Positions 2,591 to 34,035 of a stretch of 34,057 nt of DNA are shown in pieces. A program made the translations under genes and the position numbers. Positions within the stretch are counted from its first letter, which is position 1. Each line of letters begins with the position of its first letter. Under the pieces are notes generated by a model, which ran no database searches, was not told the origin of the DNA, and saw only the letters and a list, made by a program, of their open reading frames with translations. The stretch lies in the IMG/VR virus record IMGVR_UViG_3300033571_005476, positions 1 through 34,057 of that record; one strand, written 5' to 3'. The stretch is from a virus.

Positions 2591-2914
2591 ATGAACAAAA
2601 AGTTAATAGTTGAAAAACGCAAAATTGAAAGACAGTTAAGACACGATCTTTATATGTCGGATAAACACAACTTTGATGTTAAAGCTTGCGTAGTGGCTGG
2701 TTGTTTACCGATATTTATAGATTACTGCGAGCAATTAAATAAGGTATTTCCAGAACATTATTCTAAAGAAATGATTAAAACTTTAAATCAAAACATTAAT
2801 AGTATATTTTACAAATGTCCTGAGGATGAAAAACAAGCGGTTGCAGATCAAATGAATAACATAACGACATCATTTGAGAATTGGATTGAAAATAATTTTA
2901 AAGAAGTTGAGTAA
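2591..2914 (+). CDS. Hypothetical protein, 107 aa
   Basis: I do not recognise the family. The protein is predicted to be mostly helical, with a basic N-terminus (NKKLIVEKRKIERQLRHDL) and an acidic C-terminus ending in EVE. Its stop shares one base with the start of the DNA methyltransferase gene (TAATG), so the two are probably translated together. Confidence 0.65.
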   Translation: MNKKLIVEKRKIERQLRHDLYMSDKHNFDVKACVVAGCLPIFIDYCEQLNKVFPEHYSKEMIKTLNQNINSIFYKCPEDEKQAVADQMNNITTSFENWIENNFKEVE

Positions 2915-3564
2915 TGCTAACAATTACAAACGAAGACAACATGGAGCTAATGGCTCGTTATCCTGATAACTATTTTGACCTTGCTTTGGTAGACCCTCCT
3001 TATGGAATAGGCGAGGATGGAGCTAAAAATCATTCACGAGGTAAAGCAACAAGACCTACAATGTATACTTCTAAAAACTGGGATAAAGAAACACCTAAAA
3101 AAGAATATTTTAATGAATTAATAAGAGTTTCAAAAAATGTTATTATTTGGGGTGCAAATCATTTTATAGAAGATATACCTAATCAAAATTCATCAAGTTG
3201 GATTGTATGGGATAAACAAAACGGAGATAATGATTTTGCCGATTGTGAACTTGCGTGGACAAATCATAAAACTGCGGTAAGAAAGTTTGAATTTAGATGG
3301 GCAGGAATGTTGCAAGGTAATATGAAAAACAAAGAAATACGAATACATCCAACTCAAAAACCTGTTGCACTTTACAAATGGATTTTAAATAAATACGCAA
3401 AGCAAGGAGATAAAATACTCGATACGCATTTAGGGTCAGGAAGTATAGCAATAGCGTGCCACGATTATGGATTTGACTTGACAGCTTGCGAATTGGATAA
3501 AGAATATTTCGACAAAGCTATGCAACGAATTAATAACCACGTATCACAACAAAAACTTTTTTAA
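2914..3564 (+). CDS. DNA methyltransferase, N6-adenine/N4-cytosine class (copy 1)
   Basis: A SAM-dependent DNA methyltransferase of 216 aa. Motif IV, DPPY at residues 27-30, comes before HPTQKP (145-150) and the SAM-binding motif I region, DTHLGSGS (170-177). This is the order of beta-class enzymes of the N6_N4_Mtase family. DPPY is the catalytic loop that flips and methylates an adenine or cytosine amino group. No restriction endonuclease lies beside it, so it is probably an orphan enzyme that modifies phage DNA against host restriction. It is clearly paralogous to 33325-34035 (shared ELAWT, IHPTQKPV and LDTH.GSGS) but has phage-like codon use and lacks that gene's N-terminal extension. The target sequence cannot be read from the protein. 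Confidence 0.9.
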   Translation: MLTITNEDNMELMARYPDNYFDLALVDPPYGIGEDGAKNHSRGKATRPTMYTSKNWDKETPKKEYFNELIRVSKNVIIWGANHFIEDIPNQNSSSWIVWDKQNGDNDFADCELAWTNHKTAVRKFEFRWAGMLQGNMKNKEIRIHPTQKPVALYKWILNKYAKQGDKILDTHLGSGSIAIACHDYGFDLTACELDKEYFDKAMQRINNHVSQQKLF

Positions 3565-3915: not shown

Positions 3916-4113
3916 ATGAAATATTTACTTTTACTTTTACTATTTTCCTGTAAATCCTATTCTGTTCACGAAGCTAATTTAATAGAACAAAATAAAACGA
4001 TGATTAAATACGATGAGCAAAGTAGGAAAAAACAACAGAAAATTAGAGATAGCAGAAAAAAAACACTATTTAGAACCAATCTAAATAAGAAATCAAAAAG
4101 GTATATTTCGTAA
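3916..4113 (+). CDS. Small putative lipoprotein, 65 aa
   Basis: The first 12 residues, MKYLLLLLLFSC, form a minimal lipoprotein signal with the lipobox LFSC. The rest is strongly basic and helical (RKKQQKIRDSRKK). It follows a terminator at once, with no recognisable promoter, and its stop codon lies inside the first iteron-like sequence of the origin. Small basic lipoproteins occur among phage spanins, but this one is far from the lysis genes. The signal peptide is convincing; expression and role are uncertain. Confidence 0.5.
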   Translation: MKYLLLLLLFSCKSYSVHEANLIEQNKTMIKYDEQSRKKQQKIRDSRKKTLFRTNLNKKSKRYIS

Positions 4114-4435
4114 TAAGTTACTATAAAACGTAAAAAGTTTATACTATTTAAAAAAAAGATTTTACGGTCTCAAAGTCAATGGTAGAAAGCTTTTACATAT
4201 AAAACGTAAAAAGTTTAGAAAAAAAAAGGACATTAGTTTTTTTCTGTGTGAAAATATTTTTCTGAAAAAAAAGTAAAACTTTTTACGTTTTGTCTATAAT
4301 ATACTATAAATCAATTAGTTAATACCGTAAAAAGTTGTTTTTAAGATTTTACGGTAAAAAACATAACTGTCTATAAATTAATATTTTAACCCGTAAAAAG
4401 TTACGTAAAAAGTTTAGTTAAAAACGTAATAAGTT
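4109..4435. repeat. Iteron cluster, probable replication origin
   Basis: The 11-mer CGTAAWAAGTT recurs at 4109-4119, 4129-4139, 4205-4215, 4326-4336, 4392-4402, 4404-4414 and 4425-4435, and inverted at 4277-4287. The two copies at 4392 and 4404 are in tandem with a 12-bp period. A 10-bp inverted repeat (TACCGTAAAA 4323-4332, TTTTACGGTA 4347-4356) and a further half-site (TTTTACGG) near 4161 sit among them. The region has no gene and is extremely AT-rich, suited to unwinding. It lies directly upstream of the SF3 helicase gene, so these are probably binding sites for the phage initiator. They could instead be operators controlling the promoter at 4470. Confidence 0.75.
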
Positions 4436-4469: not shown

Positions 4470-4499
4470 TTGTCAATTAAATAAATTACATTATATTTG
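4470..4499 (+). promoter_or_regulatory. Bacteroidota-type promoter of the replication operon
   Basis: TTG at 4470-4472 and TATATTTG at 4492-4499 are separated by 19 bp, the same geometry as the promoters at 662 and 31092. Transcription should start near 4506, so the RNA begins almost exactly at the first stem of the pseudoknot. The nearest iteron ends 35 bases upstream of the -33 box, close enough for initiator binding to affect transcription. Confidence 0.85.
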
Positions 4500-4510
4500 T
4501 ACTACGGTAA

Positions 4511-4589
4511 GCCTGGAAACTTCCAAAAAGATATTATTTATAGACCCATTTGTTTAAAGTCATTCCAGGCACTTTATTCGAATGGGTCT
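4511..4589 (+). ncRNA. Structured leader with H-type pseudoknot
   Basis: Two long perfect stems interlock. Stem 1 is GCCTGGAA (4511-4518) with TTCCAGGC (4563-4570), 8 bp. Stem 2 is AGACCCATT (4542-4550) with AATGGGTCT (4581-4589), 9 bp, extended inward by a G-T and a G-C pair to 11 bp (4542-4552 with 4579-4589). The arms alternate 1-2-1-2, so they form a pseudoknot and not nested hairpins. Loops of 23, 10 and 8 bases make the fold feasible. It ends 21 bases before the ATG of the helicase gene, so it probably controls that gene's translation as a protein-binding site or riboswitch-like leader. It matches no family I can name. Confidence 0.7.
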
Positions 4590-4610: not shown

Positions 4611-6053
4611 ATGAATGATAACAATTTAGAACCATTTTACACAGTTAGCCAGGATGGTAGGCTTTCTTTAGACAACTACAATTTTAAAAGATTTTTAGAA
4701 GTAAACAACTTTTTTAAATGTAAACCAAACGATCAAAGTTCATTTAATATTATTAAAAAGAATGATATATTTTTAGAGATAAAAGATGATTTTGAGGTTA
4801 AAGATTTTGTTTTAAATTACGTTGAAAATGAAATTCAAAGTAAACCTGTTTACAATTTGATGACTTCAAAAACTAATATATTTAAACGTGATTTTTTATC
4901 TATGATACAAAGTAAAGAAATTTCATTACTTCGAGATAAAAAAGATATTTGTTATTTATTTTATGAAAATGGAGTTGTTGAAGTTAAAAAAGATAGTCAA
5001 ATATTAAGACCTTATAGCGATTTTGGTTTAAGTATTTGGAAGGATCAAGTTATAAAAAGAAATTATATTGATAGCGACCACCATCAAAGTAAATACAGAG
5101 AGTTTATTTGGAAAATTAGCGGTGAAAATGTAGATCGTTATAATACTTTTCAAACTGTAATAGGTTATTTAATTCATTCTTATAAATCAAAAAGCGATAA
5201 TAAAGCTATTGTTTTAAACGATGAGATGATTTCAGATGAACCAAACGGAAGGAGTGGAAAGGGTTTATTTTGGAACTCAATTAAACAACTTAAAAAAGTT
5301 CAATCTATTGATGGTAAAAAGTTTTCGTTTAGTGATCCTTTTCCTTATCAAGGTATTAAAACAGATTGCCAGGTTTTAGTATTTGATGATGTTAAACCTA
5401 ATTTTGCCTTTATAAACTTGTTTTCTGTAATTACTGAGGGAATAGAAATTACTTATAAAGGAAAAGATACTATTAAATTACCTGTAGAAGATAGTCCAAA
5501 GATTTTAATTACTACTAATTATGTTTTAAAAGGAACAGGAGGTTCGCACGATGCGAGAAAGTTTGAGGTTGAATTAAGTTCGTTTTTTAATGCTAATTAT
5601 ACACCTAAAGATTATTTCGGACATATGTTTTTTGATGATTGGGATGCTGAGGAATATGCTCGTTTTGATTGTTATATGATTGAATGTTTAAAAAAGTATC
5701 TTAAAAATGGTTTAATGTCTTATGAAAGTATATCGTTACCATTTAAGAAACTTGAAGTTGAAATAACAAAAGAATTAATTGAATGTATTAATCAAATTAA
5801 ATCAGATGAATGGATTGAGTCTATATGGTTTTATACATTTTATGAAAATCAATTAATTAATAAATTTGATAGGAATAAATTAACTAAAAATAAGGTTACA
5901 AGTTCAATAAAAAAGTATTGTGATTTTTTTAATTACGAATATGAAACTGTAACTCCTGGTGGTATAAGAAAGTTTAAAATAATCAAAACCAAAGTTGATC
6001 CAAAAACATTGGATATTTGGGATAAAATTCAAGAAGATGCAGGAATTAACTAA
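4611..6053 (+). CDS. Superfamily 3 replicative helicase, D5/primase-helicase type
   Basis: A 480-aa ATPase expected to unwind phage DNA at the origin. Walker A is GRSGKG (213-218), Walker B is VLVFDDV (255-261), and the sensor-like ILITTNY (298-304) is followed by HDARKFE (313-319), which may supply the arginine finger. This is the pattern of the SF3 helicases seen at the C-terminus of phage primase-helicases. The first 190 residues show no zinc finger or AEP catalytic motif that I can recognise, so priming is probably left to the host. A C-terminal winged-helix region (about 420-465) may bind DNA. The iterons upstream are the likely target of this protein or a partner. Translation may be controlled by the pseudoknot leader. 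Confidence 0.85.
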   Translation: MNDNNLEPFYTVSQDGRLSLDNYNFKRFLEVNNFFKCKPNDQSSFNIIKKNDIFLEIKDDFEVKDFVLNYVENEIQSKPVYNLMTSKTNIFKRDFLSMIQSKEISLLRDKKDICYLFYENGVVEVKKDSQILRPYSDFGLSIWKDQVIKRNYIDSDHHQSKYREFIWKISGENVDRYNTFQTVIGYLIHSYKSKSDNKAIVLNDEMISDEPNGRSGKGLFWNSIKQLKKVQSIDGKKFSFSDPFPYQGIKTDCQVLVFDDVKPNFAFINLFSVITEGIEITYKGKDTIKLPVEDSPKILITTNYVLKGTGGSHDARKFEVELSSFFNANYTPKDYFGHMFFDDWDAEEYARFDCYMIECLKKYLKNGLMSYESISLPFKKLEVEITKELIECINQIKSDEWIESIWFYTFYENQLINKFDRNKLTKNKVTSSIKKYCDFFNYEYETVTPGGIRKFKIIKTKVDPKTLDIWDKIQEDAGIN

Positions 6054-9167: not shown

Positions 9168-9532
9168 TAATAGAAGAATTAAGAATTGGAAACTTAGTAT
9201 TATTTGAAAATGAAATTCAAGAAATATCATCTATTCACTCAGATAATACAATAAGGTTAAGAAAAAATAAAAATGAAAAATGTCATGGATGCTATAAAGT
9301 GAATAACTTTAAAATTAAACCAATATTATTAACCCCAGAATTATTATTAAATTTAGGTTATAAATCTGTAGGAATGTTTTTTCAAATTGATACCAATATT
9401 GAATTTTTTATTAATGATAATAAGTTAATTTGTGATTTATATGGTGAAACACTTTACAACATGGATTTCGTTCATCAACTTCAAAACTTGCATTTTTCAC
9501 TTTATCATGAACAATTAAACATAAACAAATGA
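9164..9532 (+). CDS. Conserved Bacteroidota phage protein, 122 aa
   Basis: The N-terminus ELRIGNLV and the C-terminal HQLQNLHFSLYHEQLNI closely follow a pattern I associate with a widespread, uncharacterised protein in Bacteroidota phages and prophages (ELRIGN, then PxxLTxELLLxxGY, then LHxLQNLYFALTGEEL). The middle contains the linking segment ILLTPELLLNLGYKS (104-118 of the gene-family pattern, residues about 52-68 here). Function is unknown. It supports a Bacteroidota host. Confidence 0.7.
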   Translation: MIIEELRIGNLVLFENEIQEISSIHSDNTIRLRKNKNEKCHGCYKVNNFKIKPILLTPELLLNLGYKSVGMFFQIDTNIEFFINDNKLICDLYGETLYNMDFVHQLQNLHFSLYHEQLNINK

Positions 9533-9627: not shown

Positions 9628-9827
9628 TTAAATTAGAAGAATACTGCAAGGTTAGGAATGTCAAAGCTACATTTGTAGATGGTATTTTAATCGACCCGTT
9701 GCCAGTAGTTAAGTCAAATTATAGGGTGAGAAAAGAACCTTACTTTATTGATTTGGCGGTTAAAAGATATGGATGTTCAACGGTAGTAGATGCAATGTTT
9801 AATAAACAAATGACCTTAATCATATGA
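9615..9827 (+). CDS. Hypothetical protein, 70 aa
   Basis: No family recognised. It has a strand-rich start (LQLIKLEEYCKV) and a helix near the end (YFIDLAVKRYGCSTVVDAMF). The stop overlaps the sigma-factor start by an ATGA, so it is probably coupled to it. Confidence 0.6.
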   Translation: MLQLIKLEEYCKVRNVKATFVDGILIDPLPVVKSNYRVRKEPYFIDLAVKRYGCSTVVDAMFNKQMTLII

Positions 9828-31340: not shown

Positions 31341-31540
31341 CAGTAGAAATTGAATACCACGATTTAAAATTAAGATGCCAAATAGAATACGTTTACCCAA
31401 CTTTTGAAGAAAGTGAACAAGGAATAGATTTTAACTTTGACATTCAAAGCATTAAGTTAGAAGATAGTGAAATTGATATATATTCATTATTTCACGACAA
31501 ACAAGATTACATTAAATTATTAATATCAGACAAATTATGA
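31337..31540 (+). CDS. Hypothetical protein, 67 aa
   Basis: An acidic, strand-rich small protein (TVEIEYHDLKLRCQIEYVY, then FNFDIQSIKLEDSEIDIY). The family is unknown. ATGA overlaps on both sides, including one with the ERF gene, make translation likely. Confidence 0.65.
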   Translation: MTVEIEYHDLKLRCQIEYVYPTFEESEQGIDFNFDIQSIKLEDSEIDIYSLFHDKQDYIKLLISDKL

Positions 31541-32049
31541 AAATTTACGCAAAAATACACGAGGCAAAAAAAGAAATTGGAGTTGTAAAAAAGAACGCTA
31601 AAAACCCCCATTTTAAAAATACTTACGCTGATTTAAACGCTTTAATTGATGCAGTTGAACCGATACTATTGGAAAAAGGTTTAATCTTATTACAGCCAAT
31701 AAAAGATGGTAAAGTTTACACGCAAATCATTGACATTGATAATGGTGAAATGATTGAAAGTAATATAGAGTTAAGTCCTAATTTAACAAGTCAGGCTATC
31801 GGAAGCCAAATAACTTACTATCGTCGTTACCAAATTTCGTCAATTTTACTTTTAATGGCGGACGATGACGATGGTCATAAAGCAAGCACACCACAACCAA
31901 TAGTAAAAGAAGTATTAGTATTTGGATCATCTAACTTTATCAGATGCGTGACTGCACTACAAGAAGGCAAAGGTACATTAGAACAAATCAAAGCAAAATA
32001 CCAAGTTAGTGAAGAAGTAGAAAAATTATTAATCGAAAAAAGCAAATAA
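31537..32049 (+). CDS. erf: ERF-family single-strand annealing protein, 170 aa
   Basis: KKNAKNPHFKNTYADLNALI (residues 17-36), then GLILLQP, IDNGEMIES, and SQAIGSQITYYRRYQISSIL follow the ERF recombinase pattern, with a final DDDDGHKA at 108-115. ERF proteins anneal complementary single strands and circularise phage DNA after entry; they also allow gene exchange. The C-terminus (GSSNFIRCVTALQEGKGTLE) is a separate helical tail. It forms a recombination module with the SSB-like protein at 32717. The nuclease expected to pair with it may be the VRR-NUC-like protein at 7601. Confidence 0.85.
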   Translation: MKIYAKIHEAKKEIGVVKKNAKNPHFKNTYADLNALIDAVEPILLEKGLILLQPIKDGKVYTQIIDIDNGEMIESNIELSPNLTSQAIGSQITYYRRYQISSILLLMADDDDGHKASTPQPIVKEVLVFGSSNFIRCVTALQEGKGTLEQIKAKYQVSEEVEKLLIEKSK

Positions 32050-32051
32050 TC

Positions 32052-32552
32052 ATGGAAAATTTAAACGACATCAACAGAGAAGAACAAATGCACTGGGAAA
32101 ATACACCAATTGAAAACCCTTATCATTTATCCGTAATTACAGAAGCTACGGTTATAACTTTACAAGATCACTTCGACATGATGATACAAGCGGTTAGAAA
32201 TGGAGAGTTAGACGCTTTAAGTCTTTACACTATTTCTAAGGAGGTTAAAGACATAGCCGATAAAGTGAATAAAGATGTACAAGAGTTAGCTATTGAAGAA
32301 GCTGAAAATAGAACTGAAAAAACTTTTAAATACGGTAACAAAATGGTTACTAAAGTTGAAGGTAGACGAATGATAGACTATTCAGACATTGAAGAATGGA
32401 AAATAGCTAAGGATAACTTGAAAGAAATTGAGGAAAAGTATAAGCAAGTCGCACTTTCAAAAGTTAGTAGCTTAGACGAAAGTACAGGAGAAGTATTGCA
32501 ACGTCCTATCATAACATTTAGCAAGTCATCTATTATGATTAAAAATGTTTAA
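32052..32552 (+). CDS. Hypothetical recombination-operon protein, 166 aa
   Basis: A helical acidic protein with a segment GRRMIDYSDIEEWKIAKDNL (about 111-130) that recalls proteins next to ERF or RecT genes in other phages, of the host-nuclease-inhibitor/Gp157-like sort. The family is not certain. Its position, two bases after the ERF stop and before the SSB-like gene, suggests a partner in annealing or in blocking host nucleases. Confidence 0.6.
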   Translation: MENLNDINREEQMHWENTPIENPYHLSVITEATVITLQDHFDMMIQAVRNGELDALSLYTISKEVKDIADKVNKDVQELAIEEAENRTEKTFKYGNKMVTKVEGRRMIDYSDIEEWKIAKDNLKEIEEKYKQVALSKVSSLDESTGEVLQRPIITFSKSSIMIKNV

Positions 32553-33277: not shown

Positions 33278-33387
33278 GTGCTTTGCGAAGGCGGGGCATT
33301 TAACCACTAAATTTAATTATAAAGATGAATGATATTTTTAATACAAATGTTCCTTTGAAAACGGTAACCCCCGCTTTTGCAAAGCAC
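33278..33387 (+). repeat. Long inverted repeat enclosing the methyltransferase start
   Basis: Positions 33278-33296 and 33369-33387 are complementary over 19 bases, with two G-T wobbles, and leave a 72-base loop that contains the ATG at 33325. In the RNA it would form a hairpin around the start site. GGTAAC (33363-33368) and GTTACC (33390-33395) form another, smaller dyad. The sequence is GC-rich, unlike the phage background. Confidence 0.7.
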
Positions 33388-34035
33388 GTGTTACCAGCAG
33401 TGCCTTCTTCGGAGGTTTATTTAGAAGATTGTGTAACGGCTTTAAAACGCTATGCAGATAACCATTTTGACTTGGCAATAGTTGACCCGCCTTATATGGA
33501 TGGCGACAATAAAGCCCTAAACACACTTGGAACTAACAGGACAAAATACAACATTGAAACATTTAATATTGCACCGAAGCAAGATTACTTTGATGAGTTG
33601 TTTAGGGTTTCTAAAAATCAAGTCGTTTGGGGTGGAAACTATTTTACGGATTTTTTGCCAGTTTCAAGATGTTGGCTTATGTGGGATAAAATACAAGATT
33701 TGGAACAGTTTTCTGATTTTGAACTTGCTTGGACTTCTTTTGATAAAGTGGCAAAAAAATATACTAAAGTTTCAAAAGGCGGATTTTTAACAAATGGAAC
33801 TATTGACCAAAAAATACACCCTACACAAAAGCCAGTAGGATTGTATAGTTGGATTATGAAAAAATACGCAAAGGAAGGCGACTTGATTTTAGATACACAT
33901 ATTGGAAGTGGAAGCAGTAGAATAGCAGCAAGTTTAGGCGGGTTCAACTTTGTAGGATTTGAAATATCAGAAGAATATTATGAGAAACAAGAAAAGCGTT
34001 TTAATGACTTTAAATCACAATTACGGTTGTTTTAG
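33325..34035 (+). CDS. DNA methyltransferase, N6-adenine/N4-cytosine class (copy 2)
   Basis: A 236-aa beta-class methyltransferase: DPPY (54-57), HPTQKP (165-170) and DTHIGSGS (190-197). It is a paralogue of 2914-3564. About 30 extra residues at the N-terminus (VPLKTVTPAFAKHVLPAVPS) are encoded by the right arm of the inverted repeat and are not part of the enzyme fold. GC content is higher than in neighbouring genes, and dyads flank it on both sides, so it looks like a recently gained cassette. No cognate nuclease is adjacent. The gene crosses the join of the circle, and its last codons recur at 3-65. It may protect the phage from host restriction. Confidence 0.9.
   Translation: MNDIFNTNVPLKTVTPAFAKHVLPAVPSSEVYLEDCVTALKRYADNHFDLAIVDPPYMDGDNKALNTLGTNRTKYNIETFNIAPKQDYFDELFRVSKNQVVWGGNYFTDFLPVSRCWLMWDKIQDLEQFSDFELAWTSFDKVAKKYTKVSKGGFLTNGTIDQKIHPTQKPVGLYSWIMKKYAKEGDLILDTHIGSGSSRIAASLGGFNFVGFEISEEYYEKQEKRFNDFKSQLRLF

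Follow-up and report, generated by a model that had tools for sequence, protein, structure and literature searches.

Two stems that defy chance, at positions 4511 to 4589 of the 34,057-base virus record analysed here (the window), belong, as judged by comparison with related sequences, to an RNA family of Bacteroidota phages that has no counterpart in Rfam. We consider it about 40% probable that this family forms the 5' leader of early messages, in which a 5' hairpin (P0) and a long hairpin (P2/P3) would kiss and act in cis at translation initiation, a subfamily being switched through a further segment, S1c. Comparison among members establishes, at the sequence level, the fold, its placement relative to promoter box and start codon, and its independence from the gene that follows. 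The terminase encoded by the window is 54% identical to the terminase of Nonlabens phage P12024L. The features of the window copy, all on the plus strand, are as follows.

4470-4472 and 4492-4499, plus strand: promoter-like TTG - N19 - TATATTTG, which fits the Bacteroidetes promoter form
4506-4511 with 4520-4524, plus strand: P0, the 5' hairpin, with U4508 bulged (pairs G4506-C4524, G4507-C4523, A4509-U4522, A4510-U4521 and G4511-C4520)
4512-4519, plus strand: loop of P0, CCUGGAAA
4511-4518, plus strand: S1a, the 5' strand of stem 1 and 5' kissing partner, located in the P0 loop
4511-4518 (GCCTGGAA) with 4563-4570 (TTCCAGGC), plus strand: stem 1, the kissing helix S1, 8 Watson-Crick pairs
4525-4541, plus strand: single-stranded linker between P0 and the long hairpin
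4542-4552 (AGACCCATTTG) with 4579-4589 (CGAATGGGTCT), plus strand: stem 2 or P2, the lower stem of the long hairpin, 11 pairs including one G-U
4553-4554 and 4577-4578, plus strand: 2x2 U/U internal loop between P2 and P3
4555-4560 with 4571-4576, plus strand: P3, the upper stem on top of P2
4561-4570, plus strand: 10-nt apical loop, CA followed by S1b
4563-4570, plus strand: S1b, the 3' kissing partner, the last 8 nt of the apical loop
4590-4610, plus strand: A/T-rich spacer to the start codon, ACGTTTAAAAACATTTTAT, without S1c in the window copy
4611-6053, plus strand: first gene after the leader, encoding a 480-amino-acid protein related to phage primase-helicases (VirE/DUF5906 type)

A sequence-only reading of this DNA had described the two stems as a large H-type pseudoknot ending 21 nt before the ATG at 4611. 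Inspection of the sequence confirmed both stems, their interlocking and the 21-nt distance, and stems S1 and P2, two interlocked stems in one loop, do form an H-type arrangement. That description is nevertheless incomplete, as it omits the second hairpin, P0, and the upper stem, P3. Because P2 continues through the 2x2 U/U loop into P3, stem 2 forms the lower part of a single long hairpin whose apical loop has 10 nt, and because S1b lies in this loop and S1a in the loop of P0, the structure is a pair of kissing hairpins rather than a simple H-type pseudoknot. P0 of the window reads GG(U)AAG / CUUCC, and G4511 can pair either within P0 or with C4570. The spacing of S1b within the apical loop (2 nt on its 5' side, none on its 3' side) is the commonest arrangement, found in 27 of the 65 members examined. 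The outermost pair of P3 is U-A, A-U or C-G depending on the member and its top pair U-A or U-G; in one member (L503) P3 reads AAGGT/ACCTT.

The claim that such stems are unlikely by chance held up, since 200 first-order Markov shuffles of the window yielded no comparable pseudoknot. Interlocked helices of this size occur once in the window, at 4511 on the plus strand, with none on the minus strand, and GCCTGGAA is present only once in the whole window. Folded without the pseudoknot, the leader has a z-score of -3.4. A single match of the covariance model in the window corresponds to the leader copy; the runner-up (E 0.016) is its own antisense, such antisense matches arising because the long hairpin is palindromic.

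Compensatory changes in both stems, which the sequence-only reading had proposed as a check, were found in related phage contigs. Nine close relatives were obtained by scanning IMG/VR with the helicase protein and leader patterns, followed by filtering; the alignment A2 contains the window and eight of them, L165 being omitted because of a MAFFT misalignment. All 29 pairs of P0, S1, P2 and P3 are kept in every A2 sequence (n = 9), with changes on both sides at 5 pairs, and no shuffle out of 500 attained the covariation score. Pairing was lost when the partners were shifted by 1-3 columns. In the window, P2 pair 4543/4588 is changed from A-U to G-C, a compensatory double change. Stem 1 is 7, 8 or 9 bp long among the close relatives, losses and gains being matched on both strands. 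The sequence of P0 is invariant in these relatives and thus proves nothing there, but divergent members found by the covariance models R1 and R2 have other complementary flanks around S1a (GAAG/CUUC, GGAU/AUCC, GUUG/CAAC, GUAA/UUAC). A P0 of at least 5 bp is present in 37 of 67 non-redundant members, versus 16.4 expected by flank swapping. Support for P0 is clear, though weaker than for the kissing helix.

The non-redundant family set comprises 67 members, some of them closely akin and counted here with no tree weighting, and S1a takes 52 different sequences among them; across the family, the kissing helix measures 7-10 bp. Models R1 and R2 do not include the kissing helix, so that kissing complementarity is an independent test of the members they find. 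By longest exact complement between the 5' segment and the apical region, 27 of 32 R1/R2-found members have an S1 of at least 7 nt. Among the five short cases, the script chose the wrong hairpin in L015 and L500 and L592 pairs via G-U, giving 30/32 by eye. In the swapped control at least 7 nt was reached by 45/992 pairs, many of them between near-identical lineages. A further set was chosen solely by promoter box and linker (TATATTTG-N20-45-AAAGAAATTATT); here a complement of at least 7 nt was found in 36 of 90 unique stretches among the matches listed, versus 2.1% when swapped. Finally, a descriptor combining the box, an S1 of at least 7 pairs and a surrounding hairpin of at least 14 pairs, with the distance from box to S1a limited to 7-19 nt, found 58 sites in 103 helicase loci (0 in shuffled copies) and 39 in 118 pattern loci (3 in shuffled copies), counts that include some near-duplicates, since several loci share a contig or belong to close relatives. 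Five model matches (L600, L601, L603, L604 and L615) were judged on inspection to be coding sequence or chance and were removed.

The sequence-only reading knew of no named RNA family with this layout, and none was found: the window and 17 family loci gave no score at the gathering cut-off of Rfam 15, and at E values up to 10 the leader gave chance-level matches far under cut-off (for example, mir-203, 24.4 bits vs 65). No account of the present leader was found in the open-access literature, and one may exist elsewhere. A blastn search with the leader as query detected no relative among phages and plasmids, since what the family conserves is structure rather than sequence; the cultured Flavobacterium phage 11b, in which the element lies at ~33,621-33,735 immediately before PHG11b_62, was reachable through the model alone. 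The R1 model matched none of 61 Bacteroidota genomes, and the box-linker pattern matched 7 of 395 chromosomes, a set in which the presence of Flavobacterium is not established; none of the seven has an S1, so these matches show no chromosomal or prophage copies. In GTDB genome contigs the pattern had 23 scattered matches, all rejected as lacking the structure, and weak model matches in phages 6H, Leef_1, FCL-2 and phi13:1 were rejected as resembling simple terminators or coding sequence. Nonlabens phages P12024L and P12024S gave no model match and P12024L no convincing descriptor match.

Transcription of the window copy probably starts at ~4502-4505, as judged from the promoter box, and the placement of the leader at a 5' end depends on the same box. 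In the 67 non-redundant members, the kissing segment is preceded at a distance of 7-18 nt (mostly 8-12) by TAnnTTTG or TAnnATTG; the descriptor itself requires a box, and a TAnnTTTG-type box is also present in members found by the models, which were chosen without it. The distance from hairpin end to ATG is mostly 10-24 nt across the family. The most sequence-conserved part of the RNA is the linker, AAAGATATTATT at 4527-4538 in the window, with the consensus AAAGANRTTATT. In 41 members selected without the linker pattern, some of them found by covariance models with the linker built in, the mean best match to AAAGAAATTATT was 9.95/12 versus 7.29 in shuffled segments. The best-kept positions are G4 (36/40), A5 (39/40), T8 (38/40) and T9 (39/40). 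The conserved linker AAAGANRTTATT is the strongest candidate for a binding site, whether the ribosome, the polymerase or some factor of the phage binds there.

The gap upstream of the promoter in the window is filled at 4112-4435 by direct repeats around ACGTAAAAAGTT(T), which also occur as the reverse complement and as CCGTAAAAAGTT, and similar TTTTTACGTTTT motifs are found upstream of the leader in L011. The ACGTAAAAAGTT repeats resemble origin iterons or an operator. Several relatives also contain a small lipoprotein-like ORF (MKYLL..SC..SVHE..) upstream of the leader (window 3916-4113; L004 145-345; L011 4142-4339; L175 701-889, minus strand), the window copy of which has no PHROG match.

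The protein encoded directly after the leader in the window matches phrog_28855 (E 6e-85) and is 39.9% identical to a protein of MW202828 annotated 'vire al domain', with no Pfam match at E 0.001. A primase-helicase is also the first gene in L010, L015, L104 and a few others, and in several relatives of the window's phage the leader lies upstream of the helicase with other genes intervening. Pfam domains on 46 different first genes include NUMOD4 (11), HNH_3 (10), the BT4734-like primase N-terminus (6) and DUF6291 (3), as well as primase C-terminal domains, DUF5906, VapE-like, methylases, Prim-Pol, ParB, GIY-YIG, Lin1244_N and others; the leader precedes primase-helicases and prim-pol proteins, and also small ORFs. 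The common theme of the first genes is early or replication function, not one protein. The proposal of a cis-acting RNA controlling translation of the replicative helicase therefore survives as a structured, probably cis-acting leader and loses its specificity for the helicase, which so many unrelated first-gene families do not support. The suggested metabolite ligand fared no better: nothing points to one, and a metabolite riboswitch was dropped because the gene contexts are too varied.

NUMOD4/HNH genes stand directly after the leader unusually often (L009, L408, L537, L545, L547, L548, L551, L635, L677 and others), and such endonuclease genes perhaps travel together with promoter and leader. 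Near the ends of the window are two N6_N4_Mtase DNA methylase genes (2914-3564 and 33325-34035), the far-end one close to an ERF-type recombinase gene (31537-32049; neighbourhood 31537-32552). Replication and recombination genes are split between the record ends, as if the genome were circularly permuted.

Cultured Flavobacterium phages hattifnatt9-1 and snusmum6-1 contain two leader copies each (MN812207, at 9358 and 14334; MN812234, at 9708 and 14684; L760 and L761). The first copy precedes the helicase gene (gp034 at 9441 and gp033 at 9791, respectively) and has P0 GTTAC/GTAAC and S1 GCTTCGAC. The second copy lies ahead of gp044 and gp043 and differs between these sister phages by a double change in S1 that preserves pairing, GTGAGACG/CGTCTCAC in hattifnatt9-1 versus GTGGAACG/CGTTCCAC in snusmum6-1. 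Two different kissing sequences per genome would prevent cross-pairing.

Some members have a further copy of S1a that overlaps the start codon or stands immediately before it. This copy, S1c, reads for example ACGGTCAATATGG (L659), ACAACCATG (L522), CCTACCAAAATGG (L679) and GATACAGTATGG (L635). An S1b:S1c helix that has 7 bp or more and whose end lies -1 to 4 nt from the ATG, which gives S1b two exclusive partners, one of them at the start codon, is found in 13/67 members versus 0.06 expected by swapping; 7 members reach at least 8 bp versus 0 in 4,360 swaps. S1c accompanies a variety of kissing sequences and stands at the start of unrelated genes. Carriers are L659, L676, L679, L635, L547, L522, L537, L624, L629, L009, L012, L545, L699, L633 and L658. 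In all 15 cases computed, S1a:S1b is at least as stable as S1c:S1b, by energies that ignore P0 strain and tertiary effects. The arrangement predicts a translational switch in the S1c subfamily. S1c is absent from the window copy and its close lineage, which makes the action of the window copy itself less certain, and with about four-fifths of the members lacking S1c, switching at the start codon cannot be what the family as a whole has in common.

We infer that the kissing leader acts in cis, when translation of the first gene is initiated. P0, through S1a, would keep the apical loop with S1b busy, so that the ribosome would have access to both the start region and the linker. Where S1c is present, loss or blocking of S1a would free S1b to pair with S1c, and translation would be shut; since S1a:S1b was in no computed case the weaker of the two pairings, such a message would be ON by default. 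In the window, the structure may instead be a fixed 5' platform, for ribosome standby and/or 5'-end protection, rather than a two-state switch, and the linker could alternatively serve a protein or RNA polymerase instead of the ribosome. Extended further, the design would represent a widespread class of viral RNA switches, in Bacteroidota phages, in which one loop is shared by a 5'-terminal decoy and the start codon, with the 5' hairpin meaning ON and a lost or bound 5' end meaning OFF, a generalization that we put forward tentatively. If it were true, a separate loop sequence for each leader, even within one phage, would keep the switches from cross-talk.

Several other functions were weighed against this cis-acting translational leader. 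Shielding of phage messages from 5'-end-dependent decay would account for a gene-independent structure that lies within a few nucleotides of the presumed transcription start in nearly all members and whose sequence is free to change while pairing holds; a plain 5' hairpin would suffice for this, however, and with the loop-loop design and S1c left unexplained we regard protection as an unlikely explanation. The two hairpins, ~80 nt in all, at the very start of early operons whatever gene follows, in two copies in some genomes (L408, L551, hattifnatt9-1 and snusmum6-1), also recall an RNA antiterminator like put of phage HK022, in which the folded 5' end would bind the elongating RNA polymerase and pass terminators, S1c being a side feature. 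Yet put is described as two stem-loops arranged in a V, with a short triple helix and no loop-loop helix (PMC9378689), an RNA bound by polymerase would be expected to keep more stem sequence than here, where the linker alone is conserved, and copies of the apical-loop partner beside start codons would be unaccounted for, all of which makes a put-like action rather improbable.

A transcription attenuator, with P2/P3 as an intrinsic terminator tuned by kissing, possibly via a phage or host factor, is suggested by the A-run, GC stem and T-run of many members, the common hairpin end GGG plus T-run, and a T-run of at least 4 after the last GC run in 41/65 members. We judge it decidedly unlikely: the T-run is shorter than 3 in 20/65 members, kissing and hairpin are compatible rather than mutually exclusive, and the would-be T-tract of the window, GGGUCUUGACG, contains an A-U to G-C change with compensation (in the window copy only), so that pairing rather than the T-run is kept there. 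An autogenous operator of the T4 gene 32 kind, serving a replication protein that the phage itself encodes, would fit those leaders that, as in the window, precede a primase-helicase; given first genes of many unrelated families and stems that keep no protein-readable sequence, it appears very improbable, although a common phage protein binding the linker could still be envisaged. Equally hard to credit is an element acting as DNA or in trans (an origin, a single-strand fold or an sRNA) instead of a leader. The origin- or operator-like repeats just upstream would suit it, but the position is locked between promoter and start codon across unrelated genes, and a second exact target of S1b was sought in the window and none was found, so that the idea of such a target was dropped.

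The closest known systems each share part of the design. The gene 32 leader of T4, T2 and RB69 also combines a phage replication gene, a leader pseudoknot and an A/U-rich stretch to the start codon (PMC3014915). Its pseudoknot is H-type, 67 nt upstream of the start codon of one gene, and is bound by that gene's own product, gp32 (PMC3014915), whereas the present leaders are 5'-end kissing hairpins with many unrelated first genes, showing no restriction to one gene, and with no assigned ligand. In tisB of E. coli, as here, a 5'-terminal fold has an apical loop that pairs with nearby sequence beside a single-stranded stretch, and this pseudoknot acts in translation initiation as a ribosome standby (PMC7708055). 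The layout of a standby site is also seen in the family, which combines a kissing structure at the presumed 5' end with a conserved A/U-rich linker. tisB is a single toxin mRNA with a 5-bp pseudoknot stem and a standby ~100 nt from a sequestered RBS (PMC7708055); unlike it, the family has a kissing helix of 7-10 bp, a hairpin mostly 10-24 nt from the ATG and, in part, S1c.

HK022 contains two put RNAs (putL and putR) of ~70 nt, each made of two stem-loops; one of these RNAs closely follows an early promoter (PMC9378689). The leaders resemble them in having two hairpins and ~70-80 nt, in standing at or near the start of early operons, in gene-independence and in occurring in more than one copy per phage; they differ in that put keeps the base identities that contact RNA polymerase, whereas the stems here seem to vary freely, and in that no loop-loop helix is described in put. 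HMP_4078, a candidate structured RNA of 109 bp, is found in Bacteroidetes near D5_N helicase and integrase domains (PMC8040213). It shares with the leaders the host group, a phage replication neighbourhood, a similar size and richness in hairpins, and differs in being palindromic, on both strands and with no pseudoknot described; this comparison is by description only, and kinship is possible.

Taken together, the kissing-hairpin leader shared by the DNA-replication messages of many viruses of Flavobacterium-type bacteria, and the S1c copy at the gene start in some of them, suggest a built-in RNA switch of a kind not described before. The translation start signals of Bacteroidota depart from standard Shine-Dalgarno rules, and to our knowledge little is known about the timing of gene expression in their phages. 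With its strong covariation and its occurrence in cultured Flavobacterium phages, the leader family offers a handle on both translation start and phage timing. The arrangement of S1a, S1b and S1c makes a clear prediction, and the conserved linker AAAGANRTTATT may serve as bait for the factor that reads it.
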